Of a DNA stretch of 64,000 bases, positions 29,588-57,288 are shown piece after piece. Position numbers and translations under genes: made by a program. The DNA is from Prauserella alba. Its GTDB lineage: Bacteria > Actinomycetota > Actinomycetes > Mycobacteriales > Pseudonocardiaceae. A model generated the notes under the pieces. The model saw only the letters and a list, made by a program, of their open reading frames with translations, was not told where the DNA came from and did not search any database. Each line of letters begins with the position of its first letter. The first letter of the stretch is position 1. The DNA is taken from positions 1 through 64,000 of the forward strand of contig NZ_JAMTCH010000003.1 of assembly GCF_024171735.1 (NCBI RefSeq), in the 5' to 3' direction.

Positions 29588-32551
29588 GTGGCCACTCGGC
29601 CCCCCGTCGGCCTCCCCAAGTTGTCCAAGCGGGCCCGGATCCTGCTGACAATCGCGGCCGTCCTCGTCCTGCTCTTGCTGCTCGGTGCGCGGTTCTTGAA
29701 CGCGTACGTCGACTGGCTGTGGTTCGGCGAGGTGGATGCGCGCGGCGTGTTCACCACCGTGTTGCTGACACGGTTGATCTTGTTCGTCGCCACCGGGCTG
29801 CTGGTGGGCGGCGCACTCGCGATCAGCCTGTGGATCGCCTACCGCACGCGACCGGTGTTCGTGCCGGTCAGCGGCGAGGACGACCCGCTGGCGCGGTACC
29901 GCTCGATCATCGCGAGCAGGGTGAAGCTCTTCGGTATCGGCATTCCGGTGCTTGCCGGGCTCGTGGCGGGCGTGTCCGGTCAGAGCAACTGGGAGACCGT
30001 TCAGATGTTCCTGAACGGTGGCGAGTTCGGCCGGAACGATCCGCAGTTCGGCAACGACATCGGGTTCTACGTCTTCGACCTGCCGTTCCTCGGCTGGGTT
30101 CTGGGCTGGCTGTTCGTCGCCACCGTCGTGGCGTTCATCGGCGGGCTGCTCGCGCACTACCTGTTCGGCGGCATCCGCCTCGCGGGCCGGGGCGGTTCGG
30201 TCGCGGCGCCGGCGCGGGTGCACCTGCTGATCCTGGTGGGCCTGTTCGTACTGCTCAAGGCGGTCGAGTACTTCCTCGACCGCTACAACCTGCTGCTGTC
30301 GGACCGCAACGACCTGTTCACCGGTGCCACCTACACCGACCTGAACGCGGTGCTGCCGGCCAAGCTGATCCTGCTGTGCATCTGCGTGTTCTGCGCGATC
30401 GCGTTCTTCGTCGGCGCGTTCCTGCGCAACATCCAGCTGCCGGCGATCGCGCTGGTGCTGTTGCTGCTGTCCGGGCTGATCGTCGGCGTGGCGTGGCCCG
30501 CGATCCTCGAGCAGTTCTCCGTGCGCCCGAACGCCAACGAGCGTGAGGCCCAGTCGATCCAGCGCAACATGGAGGCGACGCGGTACGCCTACGGCATCAA
30601 CGACGTCAAGTACGACAACTACACCGGCCAATCGGACGTCGACGCCAGCAAGATCCGCAACGACAAGGGCACCATCCCGAACATCCGGCTGCTCGACCCG
30701 AACGTGCTGTCCCCGACGTTCACCCAGCGTGTCGGCCGGGAGAACTTCTACGGCTTCCCCGAGAAGCTCGACATCGACCGCTACACCGTCGACGGCGAGG
30801 AGCAGGCCTACCTCGTCGCCGCCAAGGAGATGAACACCGAGGGTCTGGCCGCGAACCAGCAGACCTGGATCAACCGCCACCTCGTCTACACGCACGGCAA
30901 CGGCTTCGTCGCCGCGCCCGCCAACCAGATCGACCGCGCCCTCGAAGGCGCCGACAGCGACGGCGGCTACCCGATCGCGGGCACCAGCGACACGCAGAAC
31001 CCGACGGGTGCGGGCATGCGGGTCAAGCAGCCGCGCATCTACTTCGGCGAGCTCGCCACGGACTACGCCATCGTCGGCGGGCCGGAGGACTCTGCGCCCG
31101 GTGAGTACGACACGGCGCAGGACCGCACCTACCTGTACGACGGCAAGGGCGGCGTGGCGATCGACAACTGGTTCAACCGGGCCGTCTTCGCCATGCAGTA
31201 CGGGGAGCGCAACATCCTGTTCTCCGGAGCCATCGGCGAAGGCTCCAAGATCATGTACAACCGGGACCCGCGCGACCGGGTCGAGAAGATCGCGCCGTGG
31301 CTCACCGCCGACGGCGACCCGTACCCCGCGGTGATCGACGGCCGGGTCAAGTGGGTGGTCGACGGCTACACGACGCTCGACAACTTCCCGTACTCGCAGC
31401 GCACCTCGCTGGGCGAGGCGACCTCCGACTCGTTGTCCGGTGTCGCGCAGCAGCGGGACAGCGAGATCAACTACGTCCGTAACTCGGTGAAGGCCACGGT
31501 CGACGCGTTCGACGGCACCGTGGACCTCTACCAGATGGACAAGCAGGACCCGGTGCTGAAGGCCTGGATGAAGACCTTCCCCGGCGTCGTGAAACCGCAG
31601 TCGCAGATCTCCGACGAACTGCGACAGCACTTCCGGTACCCGGAGGACATCTTCAAGCTCCAGCGCGAGCTGATCACGCAGTACCACGTGGAGAACGCCC
31701 AGGAGTTCTACGCGACCCAGACGTTCTGGAACGTGCCGCAGGACCCGACGACGGAAGGCGGGCTCGACCCGAACTCCGACGCGGCCAAACAGCCCGCGTA
31801 CTACACGTACTCCCAGTCGCCGTGGCAGGACGAGCCGCACTTCCAGCTGACGAGTGCGCTCACCCAGCTGCGACGGCAGTACCTCGCCGCCTGGATGTCG
31901 GTCTCGTCCGACCCCGGCAGTTACGGGAACATCCGCGTGCTGCGGCTGCCGACCTCCGGTGAGCAGCAGATCGAAGGCCCGGTCCAGGTGCAGAACGCGT
32001 TCCAGTCGCACCCGGAGTTCACCCAGGACCGCACCCTGCTGGGCAACCAGAGCGTCGACCTGATCTACGGCAACCTGCTCACCCTGCCGGTCGCGGAAGG
32101 GTTCCTGTACGTCGAACCCATCTACGTCCAGCAGCGCAACTCGCAGAGCTACCCCCAGCTGGCCCGTGTCATCGTGTCGTTCGGCGGCAGGATCGGCTTC
32201 GCCGCCACCCTCAACGAGGCACTCGACGACGTCTTCGGCGAAGGCAGCGGCGACGCCGCCACCGGACCCGATTCGGGTGACACGCCCGGCCAGGGCGACT
32301 CCGGCAACAACGGAGACAACCAGCAGGGCGGCAACCAGGACGGCGGCGACTCCGGCGGCCAGGACGGCGGCAACCAGGACGGCGGCGGTAACAGCGGCGA
32401 GATGAACCAGGCCGTCCAGGACATCCAGGCCGCGCTCGAGAAGCTCCGCACGGCCCAGAACGAGGGCGACTTCCAGAAGCAGGGTCAGGCGCTGTCCGAA
32501 CTGGATGAAGCCACCCGCCGCTACGAGGAGCTCCAGAACTCAGGAGGGTGA
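29588..32551 (+). CDS. UPF0182 family integral membrane protein
   Basis: A 987-residue protein with about seven transmembrane segments in the first 320 residues, followed by a large extracytoplasmic domain and a Gly/Asn/Asp/Gln-rich linker (residues 895-940), closing with a short helical end. It matches UPF0182, a conserved actinobacterial and cyanobacterial family without a settled role; the mycobacterial copy is Rv3193c. GTG 29588 has AGGAG eight bases upstream, better than GTG 29579, which overlaps that site. A TAGAGT box about 75 bases upstream may be its promoter. Conservation beside a surface protease suggests a cell-envelope function. Confidence 0.9.
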   Translation: MATRPPVGLPKLSKRARILLTIAAVLVLLLLLGARFLNAYVDWLWFGEVDARGVFTTVLLTRLILFVATGLLVGGALAISLWIAYRTRPVFVPVSGEDDPLARYRSIIASRVKLFGIGIPVLAGLVAGVSGQSNWETVQMFLNGGEFGRNDPQFGNDIGFYVFDLPFLGWVLGWLFVATVVAFIGGLLAHYLFGGIRLAGRGGSVAAPARVHLLILVGLFVLLKAVEYFLDRYNLLLSDRNDLFTGATYTDLNAVLPAKLILLCICVFCAIAFFVGAFLRNIQLPAIALVLLLLSGLIVGVAWPAILEQFSVRPNANEREAQSIQRNMEATRYAYGINDVKYDNYTGQSDVDASKIRNDKGTIPNIRLLDPNVLSPTFTQRVGRENFYGFPEKLDIDRYTVDGEEQAYLVAAKEMNTEGLAANQQTWINRHLVYTHGNGFVAAPANQIDRALEGADSDGGYPIAGTSDTQNPTGAGMRVKQPRIYFGELATDYAIVGGPEDSAPGEYDTAQDRTYLYDGKGGVAIDNWFNRAVFAMQYGERNILFSGAIGEGSKIMYNRDPRDRVEKIAPWLTADGDPYPAVIDGRVKWVVDGYTTLDNFPYSQRTSLGEATSDSLSGVAQQRDSEINYVRNSVKATVDAFDGTVDLYQMDKQDPVLKAWMKTFPGVVKPQSQISDELRQHFRYPEDIFKLQRELITQYHVENAQEFYATQTFWNVPQDPTTEGGLDPNSDAAKQPAYYTYSQSPWQDEPHFQLTSALTQLRRQYLAAWMSVSSDPGSYGNIRVLRLPTSGEQQIEGPVQVQNAFQSHPEFTQDRTLLGNQSVDLIYGNLLTLPVAEGFLYVEPIYVQQRNSQSYPQLARVIVSFGGRIGFAATLNEALDDVFGEGSGDAATGPDSGDTPGQGDSGNNGDNQQGGNQDGGDSGGQDGGNQDGGGNSGEMNQAVQDIQAALEKLRTAQNEGDFQKQGQALSELDEATRRYEELQNSGG

Positions 32552-51864: not shown

Positions 51865-52575
51865 TCAGCCCGCTGGGCGTGCCTCGGGGCTGCCGGGGCC
51901 GGATCGGAACGTGCGGCGGTAGGCATCCGGAGAGGTGCCGATCCGCCGGTTGAAGTGCCGGCGCAGCGTGGCCGCCGTGCCGAGGCCTACCTGCGCTGCG
52001 ATGTCGTCCACGCTGTCGTGGACTGTTTCCAGCAGTTCCTGCGCACGCCGGATGCGTTGCGTCAGCAGCCGTTGTAATGGACTCGTACCCGTGACAGCGA
52101 GGAACTGGCGGCTGAGCTGGCGTGGGCTCAGACCCGCCTCGCGGGCGAGGTCGGTGACGGTCAACGGTTGGTGCAGGCGCTCGATCGCCCAATCGAGCAG
52201 GCCGTTGAGGCTGTGACCGTTGCCGGAGGACACCGGTGTGGCGATGAACTGCGCCTGTCCACCGTCACGATGGGGCGGTACGACCAGGCGTCTGGCCGCG
52301 CTGTTGGCCGCTGCGGCACCGTAGTCCGTGCGGACCATGTGCAGGCACAGGTCGATCCCGGCCACTTGTCCAGCCGAGGTGAGTACATCGCCGTCGTCGA
52401 CGTAGAGCACGTCGGCGTCGACCGCGATTCCCGGGTACTGCTGCGCGAGTGTCTCGGCGTACGACCAGTGCGTGGTGGCACGTCGCCCGTCGAGCAGTCC
52501 CGCGGCGGCGAGCACGAAAGCACCCGTGCATATCGACGCCACTCGGGCGCCGCGTTCGTGTGCGGTCCGCACGGC
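51865..52575 (-). pseudogene. N-terminally truncated GlxA/AraC-type regulator
   Basis: The frame encodes the second half of a DJ-1/PfpI-like domain (RGARVASICTGAFVLAAAGLLDGRRATTHW) and a complete C-terminal AraC-type helix-turn-helix region (TVTDLAREAGLSPRQLSRQF). GlxA-family regulators are normally near 320 residues, so roughly 110 N-terminal residues are missing. The apparent upstream start is in unrelated sequence: homology ends near 52575, where a different gene fragment on the other strand begins. Expression of the DNA-binding part is possible but loss of the sensing domain makes regulation unlikely. I call it a pseudogene. Confidence 0.7.
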
Positions 52576-52748
52576 GCGCGTATCTGCTGGCCGTCTTCGA
52601 GTTCGCACTGCCACCGGCGGTGCTGCTGTGTGTCACCGCGGTCCTCGCCGGGTTCACGCTGGTCTGGACCGTGCGTGAAGCGGTGCGGAACCCACCGGAC
52701 GACGCCGCGTCGGGCTTGCCGGCCGACGGTGCGCCGAAACGTGTTTGA
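52570..52748 (+). pseudogene. C-terminal fragment of a membrane protein
   Basis: On the plus strand, about 57 codons from around 52575 read as a protein C-terminus: one clear hydrophobic helix (FALPPAVLLCVTAVLAGF), a charged end and a TGA at 52746-52748. Upstream sequence in this frame is antisense to the truncated regulator, so the N-terminal part was lost at the same junction. The parent family cannot be named. Confidence 0.45.
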
Positions 52749-52837
52749 CGCGCGGCTCGCAAGGCTGTCGACCGGCACTTCGCGGTTCTGCGATTTCCCA
52801 CTCTTTCTTCCGACGGACGCTCCGAAACCGCCTCGGG

Positions 52838-53857
52838 TCAGTCCTGACCCGCCAGGCGGGTCAGGGTGTCGGCGACCCCTTCCTCCCGTGCGTCGCGGTG
52901 TCCGGTTCCCGCCCAGAGGTGGATCAGCCCGGTGTCGCGGGCGGTGGCGGCGGCCTTGCGCAGCGGGCCGGTGAGGTGGTGCACGGCGGGATACGCGCAG
53001 GGCGCGATGGGGTCGTACCGGTCGGTGAACTCGTTGCGTAGCGCTCGTGCGGGTCGGCCGGTGAACGCGCGGGTGACGACGGTCGCGTCGAAGTCGGGGT
53101 CGACCAGTGCGGCCTTGTGCGGCGCGGAGGTTCCGCTCTCATGGGTGCGCAGCAGCGCGGTGCCCACGGTGACCGCCTCGGCACCGGCGTCGATCGCGGC
53201 GGCGACGTCGGCGCGCCGGCTGATGCCACCCGCGCCGATCAGCGGAAGGCGGGTGTCGGCGCGAACGTCCCGGAGCAGACGCGGCAACGGAACCTCGGGC
53301 GGCGTCCGCGTCGGGGTGAACGTGCCGGAATGGCCGCCTGCGGCGGAGGACTGGACGACGAGGGCGTCAACCCCGGCCTCCTCGGCGAGCTGTGCCTCGG
53401 GTGCGGAGGTCACCGTCTGCACCACCATGCTGCCGGCCGCGCGCAAGGCGGAGACGACGTCGCCGTGCGGCACGCCGAAGGTCAGCGACACGACCGGAAC
53501 CGGATCCGCGAGCAACAGGTCGATCTTGGCCGCCCAGTGGTCGTCGTCCTCGACCGGAGCGTCCGGAAGGTGTACGCCGTAGCGGTCGGCCGCGGGCAAG
53601 AGCTCGTCGCGATAGGCGCGGTAGTCCTCTTCGGACACGGTAGCCGGATTCGGTACGAAGAGGTTGACGCCGAACGGCACTCCGTCGCCGCGGACGGCGG
53701 TGATCTGCTCGGCCAACGTCGCCGGTGTCTTGTAGCCGCCTGCGAGGAACCCCATCGATCCGGCACGCCCGGCCGCGGTGACCAGCTTCGGCGCGGTTGG
53801 GCCGCCCGCCATGGGGGCGGCGAGGACGGGAAGCCTGATGCCGAGGTCGGTGAGCAC
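52838..53857 (-). CDS. nitronate monooxygenase-family flavoprotein
   Basis: A 339-residue FMN-dependent TIM barrel of the 2-nitropropane dioxygenase/nitronate monooxygenase family. The start LGIRLPVLAAPMAGGPTAPKLV, the glycine-rich phosphate site LPLIGAGGISRRADVAAAIDAGAEAVTVGTALL at about residues 205-238 and the active-site His in SSAAGGHSG are present. It oxidises nitronates or, in some members, related toxic nitro compounds. ATG/GTG 53857 gives the family start. Standing alone beside truncated genes, it may be accessory. Confidence 0.88.
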   Translation of the reverse strand: MLTDLGIRLPVLAAPMAGGPTAPKLVTAAGRAGSMGFLAGGYKTPATLAEQITAVRGDGVPFGVNLFVPNPATVSEEDYRAYRDELLPAADRYGVHLPDAPVEDDDHWAAKIDLLLADPVPVVSLTFGVPHGDVVSALRAAGSMVVQTVTSAPEAQLAEEAGVDALVVQSSAAGGHSGTFTPTRTPPEVPLPRLLRDVRADTRLPLIGAGGISRRADVAAAIDAGAEAVTVGTALLRTHESGTSAPHKAALVDPDFDATVVTRAFTGRPARALRNEFTDRYDPIAPCAYPAVHHLTGPLRKAAATARDTGLIHLWAGTGHRDAREEGVADTLTRLAGQD

Positions 53858-54371: not shown

Positions 54372-56423
54372 ATGAGCGGTCGGCACAGGAATCCGGGAAA
54401 GTTCGGGCTGTATGCCGCAGTTCTGGGTAGTAGTGCGGCGGTGCTGAGCGCGGTACTGGCTCAGCCTGAGCCGGTGCACGACCGGCCCGACGACTCGGTG
54501 TCGGCGCTCAGTGGTTCTGGTGGACTGCGCGATTCGGGTGGACCGCACCACGACCCGAACGGCGCAGCCGTCGACGAACACGACGCACACACCTCGCCGG
54601 TCGCGCCACGTGGTCCGGCCGCCGCCGAACGCCCAGCCCGCGATGCCGAACAAGGGCCGCAGGCCGGCTCCGTGGCGAAACCGGAGGCCGACGAGCGTCG
54701 GCGGCACCCGGCGCGTGCGCGATCGGCCGCCGAGTCGACGACCGGATCCGCGGTCGCCCACGCCGAATCTGTGGCTGAACGGGAGAAGACCTCGCTCGCA
54801 CGGGGCGAAACCGTCGCCGCGCAGGGCGGAGCGGCCACGCAGGATGAAGCCGTGGCCGTGCAGGAGGAAACCGTGGCGCAGGCCACCGCCGAGTCTGCCC
54901 CGGGTGCCGGACCGGTGCGGGCCACGGCCACGGCGCGGTCGGAGCACGGCGACGCACTCGACGCCGCAGCGACGTCACCACGCGAGCAGCCGGCCGAAGC
55001 GGCGCCGGAGCCGGCGACCGTCGCGCCGGCGAGTGTCGACGCGGCCGCGCATGTCGCGCAGGCGGCCGACGAGCCTGCCGTCACGACGACCCGCGCGGCG
55101 GGCAGCCCGGAGGTCACCACGAAGGCCGACGGGAGTTCGGCCAGCGTTACGGTGACGGACCGGGACTCCGTCGAGGCTTCCGTCGGGACCGAGGTGGGCG
55201 GTGCCTCGATCGACGCCAGCGGAAAGGTGAATGCCGGTCCGAAGGCATCCGCCTCGGCATCGGCCGGCCCTGACGGGCTCGAGGCGGGCATATCGGTGGA
55301 GAACGGCGTCGCCGGATCCGCCGGTGTCGATGCGGAACACGGTGCGCTGCGCGCCGGTACGGAGGTCGGCGGGTTCGGCGGGGGCCGTGGCCAGTTCTCC
55401 GGCCAGCTCGACCTGGGCGGTGCGCAGCTGGCCATGGGCGGGTTCGTCGGATTCGAAGGGTTCGTGAGCGGTAGCGGCGGAATCAGCGGTGTCGAAGGGA
55501 AAGTGACGGCGACCGGCCAGCTGGGCTACGGCGCCGAGTTCGGAGCGGGCGCCTCGTGGGACGGCGAGACGCTGGACGCCCACACCGAGTTCGGCGCCTC
55601 GGTGGTCACCGGCGGCAAGGTCCGCACGGACGTCTCGGTCGATCCGGCGCAGGTCGCATCCGACCTCGGTGGCCTGGTCAGCTCCGAACACGGTCCGCTC
55701 GGCGGCATCTCGTTCTCCGACACCTCGCTCGGAACCGAGTCGGACGACGCCGTCGACGTCGACGACGACACGGTCGACGCCATCACCGGTGCCACGCCGT
55801 CTCACGACGACACGGTCGACACGGATGCCGAGGACGCGGTGGCCGAGGATACGGGATCGGAGGACGCGGAATCCCAGGACGCCGAGACCGAGGACGCGGA
55901 ATCGGAGAACGCGGGATCGGAGGACGCGGAATCCCAGGACGCCGAGACCGAGGACGCGGAATCGGAGAACGCGGGATCGGAGGACGCGGAGACCGAGAAC
56001 ACCGAAACCGAGGACGCGGAGACCGAGGAGGCCGAGACCGAGGAGGCCGAGACCGAGGAGGCCGAGACCGAGGACGCGAAGAGCGCTGCGCCGGCGGAAT
56101 CCGACAGCACCACCGACGCCGCATCGGAGGACTCCGGGAATGAAACCGATGCCTCCGGGACCGGCGGTTACAGCGACGGTTTCGGCAGTGAGGTCGACGG
56201 CGGCGGGGTCCGTGACAGTTCAGCCAGCCCGGACAACTCCGACGACTCGTCCGACCCGGATTCCGACGACGGCGGTGGCTACGGCGGGGGCTTCGGCAGT
56301 GAGGTCGACGGCGGCGGGGTCGGTGGCGCCGATGCCGACGGCGGCTCGTCGTCCAGCAGTTCGTCCAGTGGCGGCGGTGGCTACGGAGGCGGCGGCTTCG
56401 GTGGCAGCGTCGGTGCTTTCTGA
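54372..56423 (+). CDS. large acidic repeat-containing exported protein, unknown function
   Basis: A 683-residue protein. A basic start and a hydrophobic segment (residues 11-30, LYAAVLGSSAAVLSAVLAQP) form a signal peptide or anchor. Residues 35-240 are Ala/Glu/Pro-rich and disordered-looking. Residues 240-455 are Gly/Ala/Ser-rich with alternating strands (SIDASGKVNAGPKASASAS, GVEGKVTATGQLGYGAEFG), like a beta-solenoid or adhesin-type domain. Residues 470-575 are Asp/Glu repeats, including an exact 60-bp duplication, and the end (595-683) is Gly/Ser-rich with two copies of FGSEVDGGGV. No known family. It could be a surface protein that binds ions or partners. ATG 54372 has GAGGGG upstream. Cell-surface function is inference. 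Confidence 0.75.
   Translation: MSGRHRNPGKFGLYAAVLGSSAAVLSAVLAQPEPVHDRPDDSVSALSGSGGLRDSGGPHHDPNGAAVDEHDAHTSPVAPRGPAAAERPARDAEQGPQAGSVAKPEADERRRHPARARSAAESTTGSAVAHAESVAEREKTSLARGETVAAQGGAATQDEAVAVQEETVAQATAESAPGAGPVRATATARSEHGDALDAAATSPREQPAEAAPEPATVAPASVDAAAHVAQAADEPAVTTTRAAGSPEVTTKADGSSASVTVTDRDSVEASVGTEVGGASIDASGKVNAGPKASASASAGPDGLEAGISVENGVAGSAGVDAEHGALRAGTEVGGFGGGRGQFSGQLDLGGAQLAMGGFVGFEGFVSGSGGISGVEGKVTATGQLGYGAEFGAGASWDGETLDAHTEFGASVVTGGKVRTDVSVDPAQVASDLGGLVSSEHGPLGGISFSDTSLGTESDDAVDVDDDTVDAITGATPSHDDTVDTDAEDAVAEDTGSEDAESQDAETEDAESENAGSEDAESQDAETEDAESENAGSEDAETENTETEDAETEEAETEEAETEEAETEDAKSAAPAESDSTTDAASEDSGNETDASGTGGYSDGFGSEVDGGGVRDSSASPDNSDDSSDPDSDDGGGYGGGFGSEVDGGGVGGADADGGSSSSSSSSGGGGYGGGGFGGSVGAF
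55861..55980 (+). repeat. exact 60-bp tandem duplication in the repeat protein
   Basis: Bases 55861-55920 and 55921-55980 are identical, each encoding a 20-residue Asp/Glu/Ser/Ala block. Shorter 15-base units encoding EAETE follow at about 56020-56070. Identity without any change indicates recent expansion. Confidence 0.95.
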
Positions 56424-56679
56424 GCACCAGGTCGAGGCGGCGGCGCAGCAGGCCGATGAGCGCCACCAGACGGCGGTGGCCGGCGAACACACCGCGATCC
56501 CGTCGAGGGCGCTGCCGGCAGCCGCCCGCTCCTGCGTTCCGGCTTCGTCGGCTCCGCGGAGAGCCGCGCTCTCCAGCTGCTGCCCGGGGCGTGGTCTGTA
56601 CCGCGGCGACGCCGACGGTCACGAGTGTGCCGGTGGCTCTGACGTCGTCGAGTGCGCGGCCACGGCGGCACAGGCGTGC
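56424..56679. other. intergenic interval without recognisable gene
   Basis: About 260 bases. Minus-strand frames are open but carry no domain or good start. Possibly decayed coding sequence. Confidence 0.45.
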
Positions 56680-56685
56680 CATACT
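56680..56685 (+). promoter_or_regulatory. -10 box of leaderless promoter (LURP-one-like gene)
   Basis: CATACT ends six bases before GTG 56692. Confidence 0.4.
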
Positions 56686-56691
56686 CGCCGT

Positions 56692-57288
56692 GTGACTGCA
56701 CCGATGCACCTGCCGACGTTCTTCGTCCGCCAGCGGATCACGATGATGGTCAACCGCTACGAGATCCGTGGCGTCGGCCAGGACGGCGGCGAGGGTGACC
56801 TGATCGCGTTCGCACAGCAGAAGCGGATGAAGCTGCGCGAGGAGATCATCTTCTACACGGACGAGACGCGCACCCGCCAGGTGTTCTCGTTCAAGGCCCG
56901 GCAGCGGCTCGACGTGCACGCCGAACACGACGTGTACGACGAGCACGGGCAGCAACTCGGCGTGTTCAGCAAGGAGTTCGGGAAGAGCCTGCTGCGGTCG
57001 ACGTGGCAGCTGCACGGGCCGGGCTACTCCGCGACGGGCCGGGAACGCAGCAAGTTCATCGCCGTTCTCCGCCGGATCTGGACGATGATCCCGTATCTCG
57101 GCGACGTCTGGGTGCCGTTCCTGTTCCACTTCGACTTCACCGACAACGAGACCGGGCAGCCGGTGATGACCAGTCAGAAGGGCGTCGCGATCCGCGACAA
57201 GTACACGATCACCGTGCCCGATCCACGCGTCGACTTCCGGCTGGCCGCCAGCATGGCCGTCGCACTGGACGCACTCCAGTCACGCTGA
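56692..57288 (+). CDS. LURP-one-related/YxjI family protein
   Basis: A 198-residue protein of the LOR family (tubby-like barrel, related to phospholipid scramblases). The pattern FFVRQRITMMVNRYEI at the start, the KARQRLDVHAEHDVYDEHGQQLGVFSKEF segment and a hydrophobic turn VWVPFLFHFDF late in the protein fit the family. Its bacterial role is not established; membrane association is likely. GTG 56692 is preceded by CATACT. It follows the repeat protein gene on the same strand but with its own promoter. Confidence 0.85.
   Translation: MTAPMHLPTFFVRQRITMMVNRYEIRGVGQDGGEGDLIAFAQQKRMKLREEIIFYTDETRTRQVFSFKARQRLDVHAEHDVYDEHGQQLGVFSKEFGKSLLRSTWQLHGPGYSATGRERSKFIAVLRRIWTMIPYLGDVWVPFLFHFDFTDNETGQPVMTSQKGVAIRDKYTITVPDPRVDFRLAASMAVALDALQSR

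Follow-up and report, generated by a model that had tools for sequence, protein, structure and literature searches.

The question raised by this locus is what kind of protein is encoded at 54372-56423 of the analyzed stretch of Prauserella alba DNA (64,000 nucleotides, hereafter the window), and to which proteins its central part is related. The product is a very acidic, probably exported protein of a soil bacterium, with 135 Asp and Glu residues against 32 Lys and Arg and no Cys among its 683 amino acids. The frame is a real gene because the third-position GC content is 82 % and the dN/dS value against the orthologue of P. halophila (0.53) reveals constraint of the below-1 type. All the parts listed in the original prediction, which was made from the sequence alone, namely a hydrophobic export-type N-terminus, an Ala-rich linker, a Gly/Ser core, acidic repeats and a Gly-rich tail, are present (Table 1).

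Table 1. Features of the acidic protein gene and of its surroundings in the window
Feature	Coordinates	Strand	Evidence and remarks
Nitronate monooxygenase-like neighbour, syntenic anchor	52838..53857	-	Function by inspection
Gene for probably exported acidic protein, 683 aa	54372..56423	+	ORF and translation, ATG start; dN/dS 0.53 vs P. halophila orthologue
N-terminal signal peptide or anchor (MSGRHRNPGK and 20 hydrophobic residues; VLA possible cleavage site)	54372..54461	+	Sequence; dN 0.05
Ala/Glu/Pro-rich linker	54483..55076	+	Composition; dN 0.48
Beta-type core domain, common to T7SS_signal/WXG100 proteins	55077..55673	+	Profile matches in 107/297 family genomes; period-2 hydropathy; domain tree
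Acidic repeat array, 15-bp unit (E-T/S-E-D-A)	55828..56078	+	TRF, about 16.7 copies
Exact 79-bp repeat, copy 1	55852..55930	+	Sequence self-comparison
Exact 79-bp repeat, copy 2, 60-bp offset	55912..55990	+	Sequence self-comparison
Gly/Ser/Asp-rich tail, ends GGFGGSVGAF	56112..56420	+	Kept in P. halophila and in truncated G006 copy
PAP2 phosphatase gene remnant, convergent	56427..56750	-	tblastn/blastn vs L088; PAP2 by inspection
LURP-one/scramblase-like neighbour, syntenic anchor	56737..57288	+	90-92 % identical in four congeners; function by inspection

The N-terminal sequence, basic and then hydrophobic (MSGRHRNPGKFGLYAAVLGSSAAVLSAVLA), is the best-conserved part of the protein (dN 0.05 against P. 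halophila). Inspection of this sequence identified the n and h regions of a signal peptide and a VLA site devoid of a clear polar c-region, so that the signal may remain uncleaved and serve as an anchor; a clearer cleavage motif, SPASA, is found in the orthologue from Herbihabitans rhizosphaerae. The linker that follows evolves fast (dN 0.48) and, judging from its composition, is probably disordered. At the other end of the protein (GGGGFGGSVGAF), there is no LPXTG sortase signal, hydrophobic stretch or other C-terminal anchor. Searches of Pfam, NCBIfam, PHROG and PDB sequences with the protein yielded no match; in particular, no Pfam match was obtained to a T7SS_signal or WXG100-like N-terminal domain or to the EspA_EspE N-terminal domain, and no Pfam or PDB sequence match to an Ig-like adhesin A domain. 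RTX calcium-binding repeats, which we also considered, were dropped because they had no Pfam match in the protein.

The core (residues 236-434) shows alternating hydropathy with a period of two residues (z = 6.9 at 180 degrees), whereas the helix period is suppressed (z = -2.0), and the same two-residue period was found in 60 of the 60 homologues tested. Because such a period is a mark of beta strands, the proposal of a beta-rich core stands, and the assignment of this region as a beta-type domain is supported by its sequence pattern. Two AlphaFold runs on a three-row alignment placed beta strands at pLDDT 34 and 35, which is too low to count as evidence, and PDB sequence searches seeded with either the single protein or the domain profile returned nothing significant. 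The domain consensus reads ...LGAeAsAsAs..dGlkagAsAeAG...gAgAFAGAka...DVGGvGAGvtgEaWAGaGAEA...DGKFHvGgsaGaALGvGGKvGFditVDP.

A search with the single protein against 100 relatives produced matches in four genomes besides that of P. alba itself, and these matches included proteins with a T7SS_signal N-terminus (PF21725; E 1e-42 and 4e-40). A domain profile built from six rows and run on 297 genomes of the family detected the domain in 107 Pseudonocardiaceae genomes, representing 27 of the 46 genera, and the same profile detected it in 7 of 297 genomes of the class, the genome of P. alba included. When the 109 distinct ORFs containing the domain were scored with a profile for T7SS-like N-termini built in this analysis, 76 were found to have such an N-terminus; most of the others match WXG100, WXG100_2 or EspA_EspE, some of them below the cut-off, and several match none. 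In all but 4 of the 109 ORFs, the domain ends approximately 70 residues or less from the C-terminus. As judged from these matches, the core is an unnamed but widespread domain that is normally the last module of predicted T7SS-type proteins (T7SS_signal/WXG100), the T7SS route of the relatives being a prediction from Pfam. The original assignment to no known family is thus correct with respect to Pfam and NCBIfam but overlooks this domain of predicted T7SS substrates. The P. alba genome itself contains an EccB gene and three T7SS_signal paralogues that carry the same core domain; in the genome scan, T7SS_signal was found at four other places only. A second weak match in this genome (L002) was dismissed because it overlaps other genes in a low-complexity stretch. 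Additional relatives were sought in viral contigs (by scans) and in phages (by tblastn) and none were found, which gives no support to an origin from a phage or prophage. Our literature search on the T7SS_signal domain, the genus and the structure of EspE recovered no paper describing this domain. Among the domain-bearing frames, we also noticed an exported-looking protein of 1023 aa in which 24 Pentapeptide_2 stretches are followed by the beta domain (L046:2350-5418) and a 1038-aa frame of Herbihabitans (G014) with Ntox28 ahead of it (L058:2386-5499).

The four exceptions to the terminal position of the domain are the window protein, its orthologues from P. halophila (L079) and H. rhizosphaerae (L080/L005), and protein L057 of genome G133. 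Only in these 4 of the 109 ORFs does the protein extend some 200-360 aa past the domain (about 250 residues in the window protein), in each case with charged repeats and a Gly-rich tail, and all four have a Sec-like N-terminus in place of a T7SS/WXG module. In L057 (561-4697), a part that by eye resembles an SGNH hydrolase precedes the beta domain, the repeats are of the type DSPRSQAQDDPGYDGPTDSP, and the long Gly-rich tail ends with GGGF. On the evidence of sequence comparison, the domain of the window protein is homologous to that of the T7SS-type proteins, and in the window protein a predicted signal or anchor of hydrophobic residues, followed by an Ala-rich linker, takes the place of the T7SS_signal/WXG100 module. 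The domain tree unites the window protein and those of P. halophila and Herbihabitans in a single clade (100/99), next to which, on long branches, lies a Herbihabitans paralogue of the T7SS type (92/83); L057 belongs to a different T7SS-type group (99/88), although its branch is very long and the placement unsure. The tree count of three Sec-type origins is too high because it includes the window gene twice (duplicate L081); inspection by eye gives two. The simplest reading of the tree is that the T7SS type is the common state and the Sec type arose at least once, perhaps twice; since the tree is unrooted, we infer the direction of this change. A tentative proposal, less likely than not but worth considering, is that within Pseudonocardiaceae a C-terminal domain of T7SS substrates switched to Sec export on two or more occasions and acquired a repeat-rich Gly/Asp tail in every case. 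If true, two such moves would imply that the domain works outside the cell whatever its route, for example, in surface assembly.

The acidic repeats have a history of their own. An exact duplication of 60 bp had been reported in the array; the duplication at the DNA level is real but longer, 79 bp at an offset of 60 bp. In 100 codon shuffles that preserved the protein sequence, the longest exact repeat did not exceed 35 bp, which indicates that the identity over 79 bp results from a recent duplication of DNA and is not an effect of amino acid repetition. The predicted variability in length was also observed, as a difference between species: three Prauserella species have 13-14, 22 and 8 units of the exact pattern, each array with its own recent exact duplications. 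The exact matches occur at offsets of 60 and 15 bp in the window, 120, 90 and 210 bp in P. halophila and 15 bp in the truncated copy of congener G006; because these offsets differ, the array expanded independently in each lineage. The sequence comparisons thus show an acidic-repeat region and a Gly/Ser/Asp tail that are added to the domain and have changed in length by lineage-specific repeat duplication. A second tandem repeat, with two copies of a 39-bp unit (32317-32398), is located in the stretch of the window with the lowest GC content (58 %).

The gene is accessory and dispensable: it is intact in 2 of the 7 congeners, with that of the window counted, and is absent, replaced or truncated in the other 5. 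The P. halophila DSM 44617 (G005) orthologue is a full gene of 701 residues. Across the genus, the slot between the nitronate monooxygenase-like and LURP/scramblase-like genes varies. G006 has lost about 1.8 kb, comprising the upstream region, the signal and the core, and retains an open piece of 190 codons (L088:5922-6494), about the 3' third of the gene, with acidic repeats, the Gly-rich tail and the GFGGSVGAF end. The same genome has an intact PAP2-type gene of 357 aa (L088:6630-7703, minus strand), of which only a remnant is found in the window and in P. halophila. By inspection, the slot is occupied in G003 by an MFS transporter and a LysR regulator and in G004 by an MFS-like gene; in G001 and G002, the searches detected no copy of the gene and no LURP anchor. 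Upstream of the slot, the frame of an AraC-type regulator (51865-52750) encodes 249 aa compared with 323 aa in G006, and what persists of a divergently oriented MFS transporter (intact at L088:3094-4434) is its 3' end, at about 52560-52748; a single deletion seems to have taken the 5' ends of both genes.

We consider it about an even bet (probability of roughly 0.5) that the gene encodes an accessory protein, exported by Sec in Prauserella, which displays a beta domain of the T7SS-substrate type at or outside the envelope, accompanied by a disordered acidic spacer. The protein would cross the membrane by the Sec route; the beta domain would fold outside and then dock to, or assemble on, the cell surface; and the tail would act as a hydrated, charge-rich, disordered spacer that tolerates changes in length. 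The route of export, the location and the function are those that we infer from this architecture.

The selection data bear on the first alternative, that of a decaying or recently orphaned gene, in which a domain of the T7SS type came to lie behind a signal by chance and now drifts, and the repeats grow unrestrained. Between the window and P. halophila, dN/dS is 0.60 (95 % 0.47-0.76) outside the repeats, that is, in the N-terminal and core part, and 0.64 (95 % 0.44-0.92) in the core alone, compared with 0.20 and 0.24 for the flanking genes; the gene is therefore constrained yet evolves 2-3 times faster than its surroundings. This high ratio, the truncation in G006, the lack of the gene in four congeners and the presence of other gene remnants in a variable slot are what decay would produce. 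We nevertheless regard decay as unlikely because the frame is intact in two species under the constraint just described, the N-terminus and the last residues are strongly conserved, and a third orthologue exists in another genus. Disruption of the frame in relatives had been named in the original prediction as grounds for rejecting it; the frame turned out to be truncated in one congener and constrained in another.

Rapid evolution, together with the export-type N-terminus, the beta core and the length-variable repeats, would also suit a surface adhesin, a role named in the original prediction next to those of ion binder and scaffold; here the core would attach to other cells or to a surface, with the acidic tail as the stalk that determines the reach. 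Yet the protein has neither an LPXTG motif, sortase or C-terminal anchor nor an adhesin Pfam domain, and the tail forms the free end and does not lie between core and wall, so this role is doubtful to a similar degree; an uncleaved N-terminal anchor with the Ala-rich linker as the stalk would fit. Less probable still is a hydration or cation-binding protein of saline habitats, in which the acidic and Gly/Ser/Asp tail would bind divalent ions or salt, leaving the core only the function of an anchor. The excess of acidic residues is in line with this explanation, and the closest named relative, P. halophila, is salt-loving by name; however, H. rhizosphaerae has the same architecture with Pro/Asp repeats of a different sequence, and the protein contains neither a known motif for ion binding nor a Pfam match. 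A secreted effector of the polymorphic toxin kind, with the beta domain as the delivery part, has in its favor the single relative with Ntox28 but is very improbable given that the window protein has no toxin domain, the domain is the last one in nearly all relatives with no toxin after it, and no immunity-like partner gene is present at the locus.

The interest of a putatively Sec-exported protein with this core extends beyond the locus. To our knowledge, the role of T7SS substrates outside mycobacteria is largely open, and the domain described here, although uncatalogued, is present in over one third of the sampled genomes of the family, where it ends the predicted T7SS substrates of most carriers. 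The carriers that seemingly use Sec would allow the role of the domain to be separated from the T7SS route, and the domain to be produced in standard hosts for secretion. The repeat array, for its part, offers a clean example of lineage-specific repeat growth in a protein predicted to be exported.

Among known systems, serine-aspartate (Sdr/MSCRAMM) surface adhesins combine a folded beta module with a low-complexity, acidic spacer that varies in length. The window protein has the same combination, a likeness in the way of working only: it differs in having no LPXTG anchor and no match to the adhesin A domain, and its tail is at the free C-terminus. Another comparison is with the EspA/EspE family ESX-1 substrates (PF18879), one member of which, from another family of the order, bears the domain according to the profile, a link that rests on this one distant match (profile E 2e-15, pairwise E 0.04); the window protein, by contrast, has no EspA_EspE domain. 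EspE is reported to be abundant on the surface of Mycobacterium marinum, from which Genapol extracts it (PMC6107294; PMC9765416). By analogy, the beta domain of the window protein might be located on the cell surface, with the reservation that within this family the domain is known from the one EspA_EspE protein just mentioned. The putative T7SS-secreted proteins of Pseudonocardiaceae (PF21725 T7SS_signal, PF06013/PF25547 WXG100) have a C-terminal beta-type domain homologous to the core, which is found on many PF21725 members and lies outside the Pfam definition; unlike them, the window protein lacks the T7SS_signal/WXG100 module, has a Sec-type N-terminus and continues for approximately 250 residues after the domain. 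The proteins of P. halophila and H. rhizosphaerae share with it the complete order of parts, that is, signal, linker, beta domain, charged repeats and Gly-rich tail, but differ in the unit and number of the repeats, which are Pro/Asp/Asn-based in Herbihabitans and Glu-Thr-based in the window protein.
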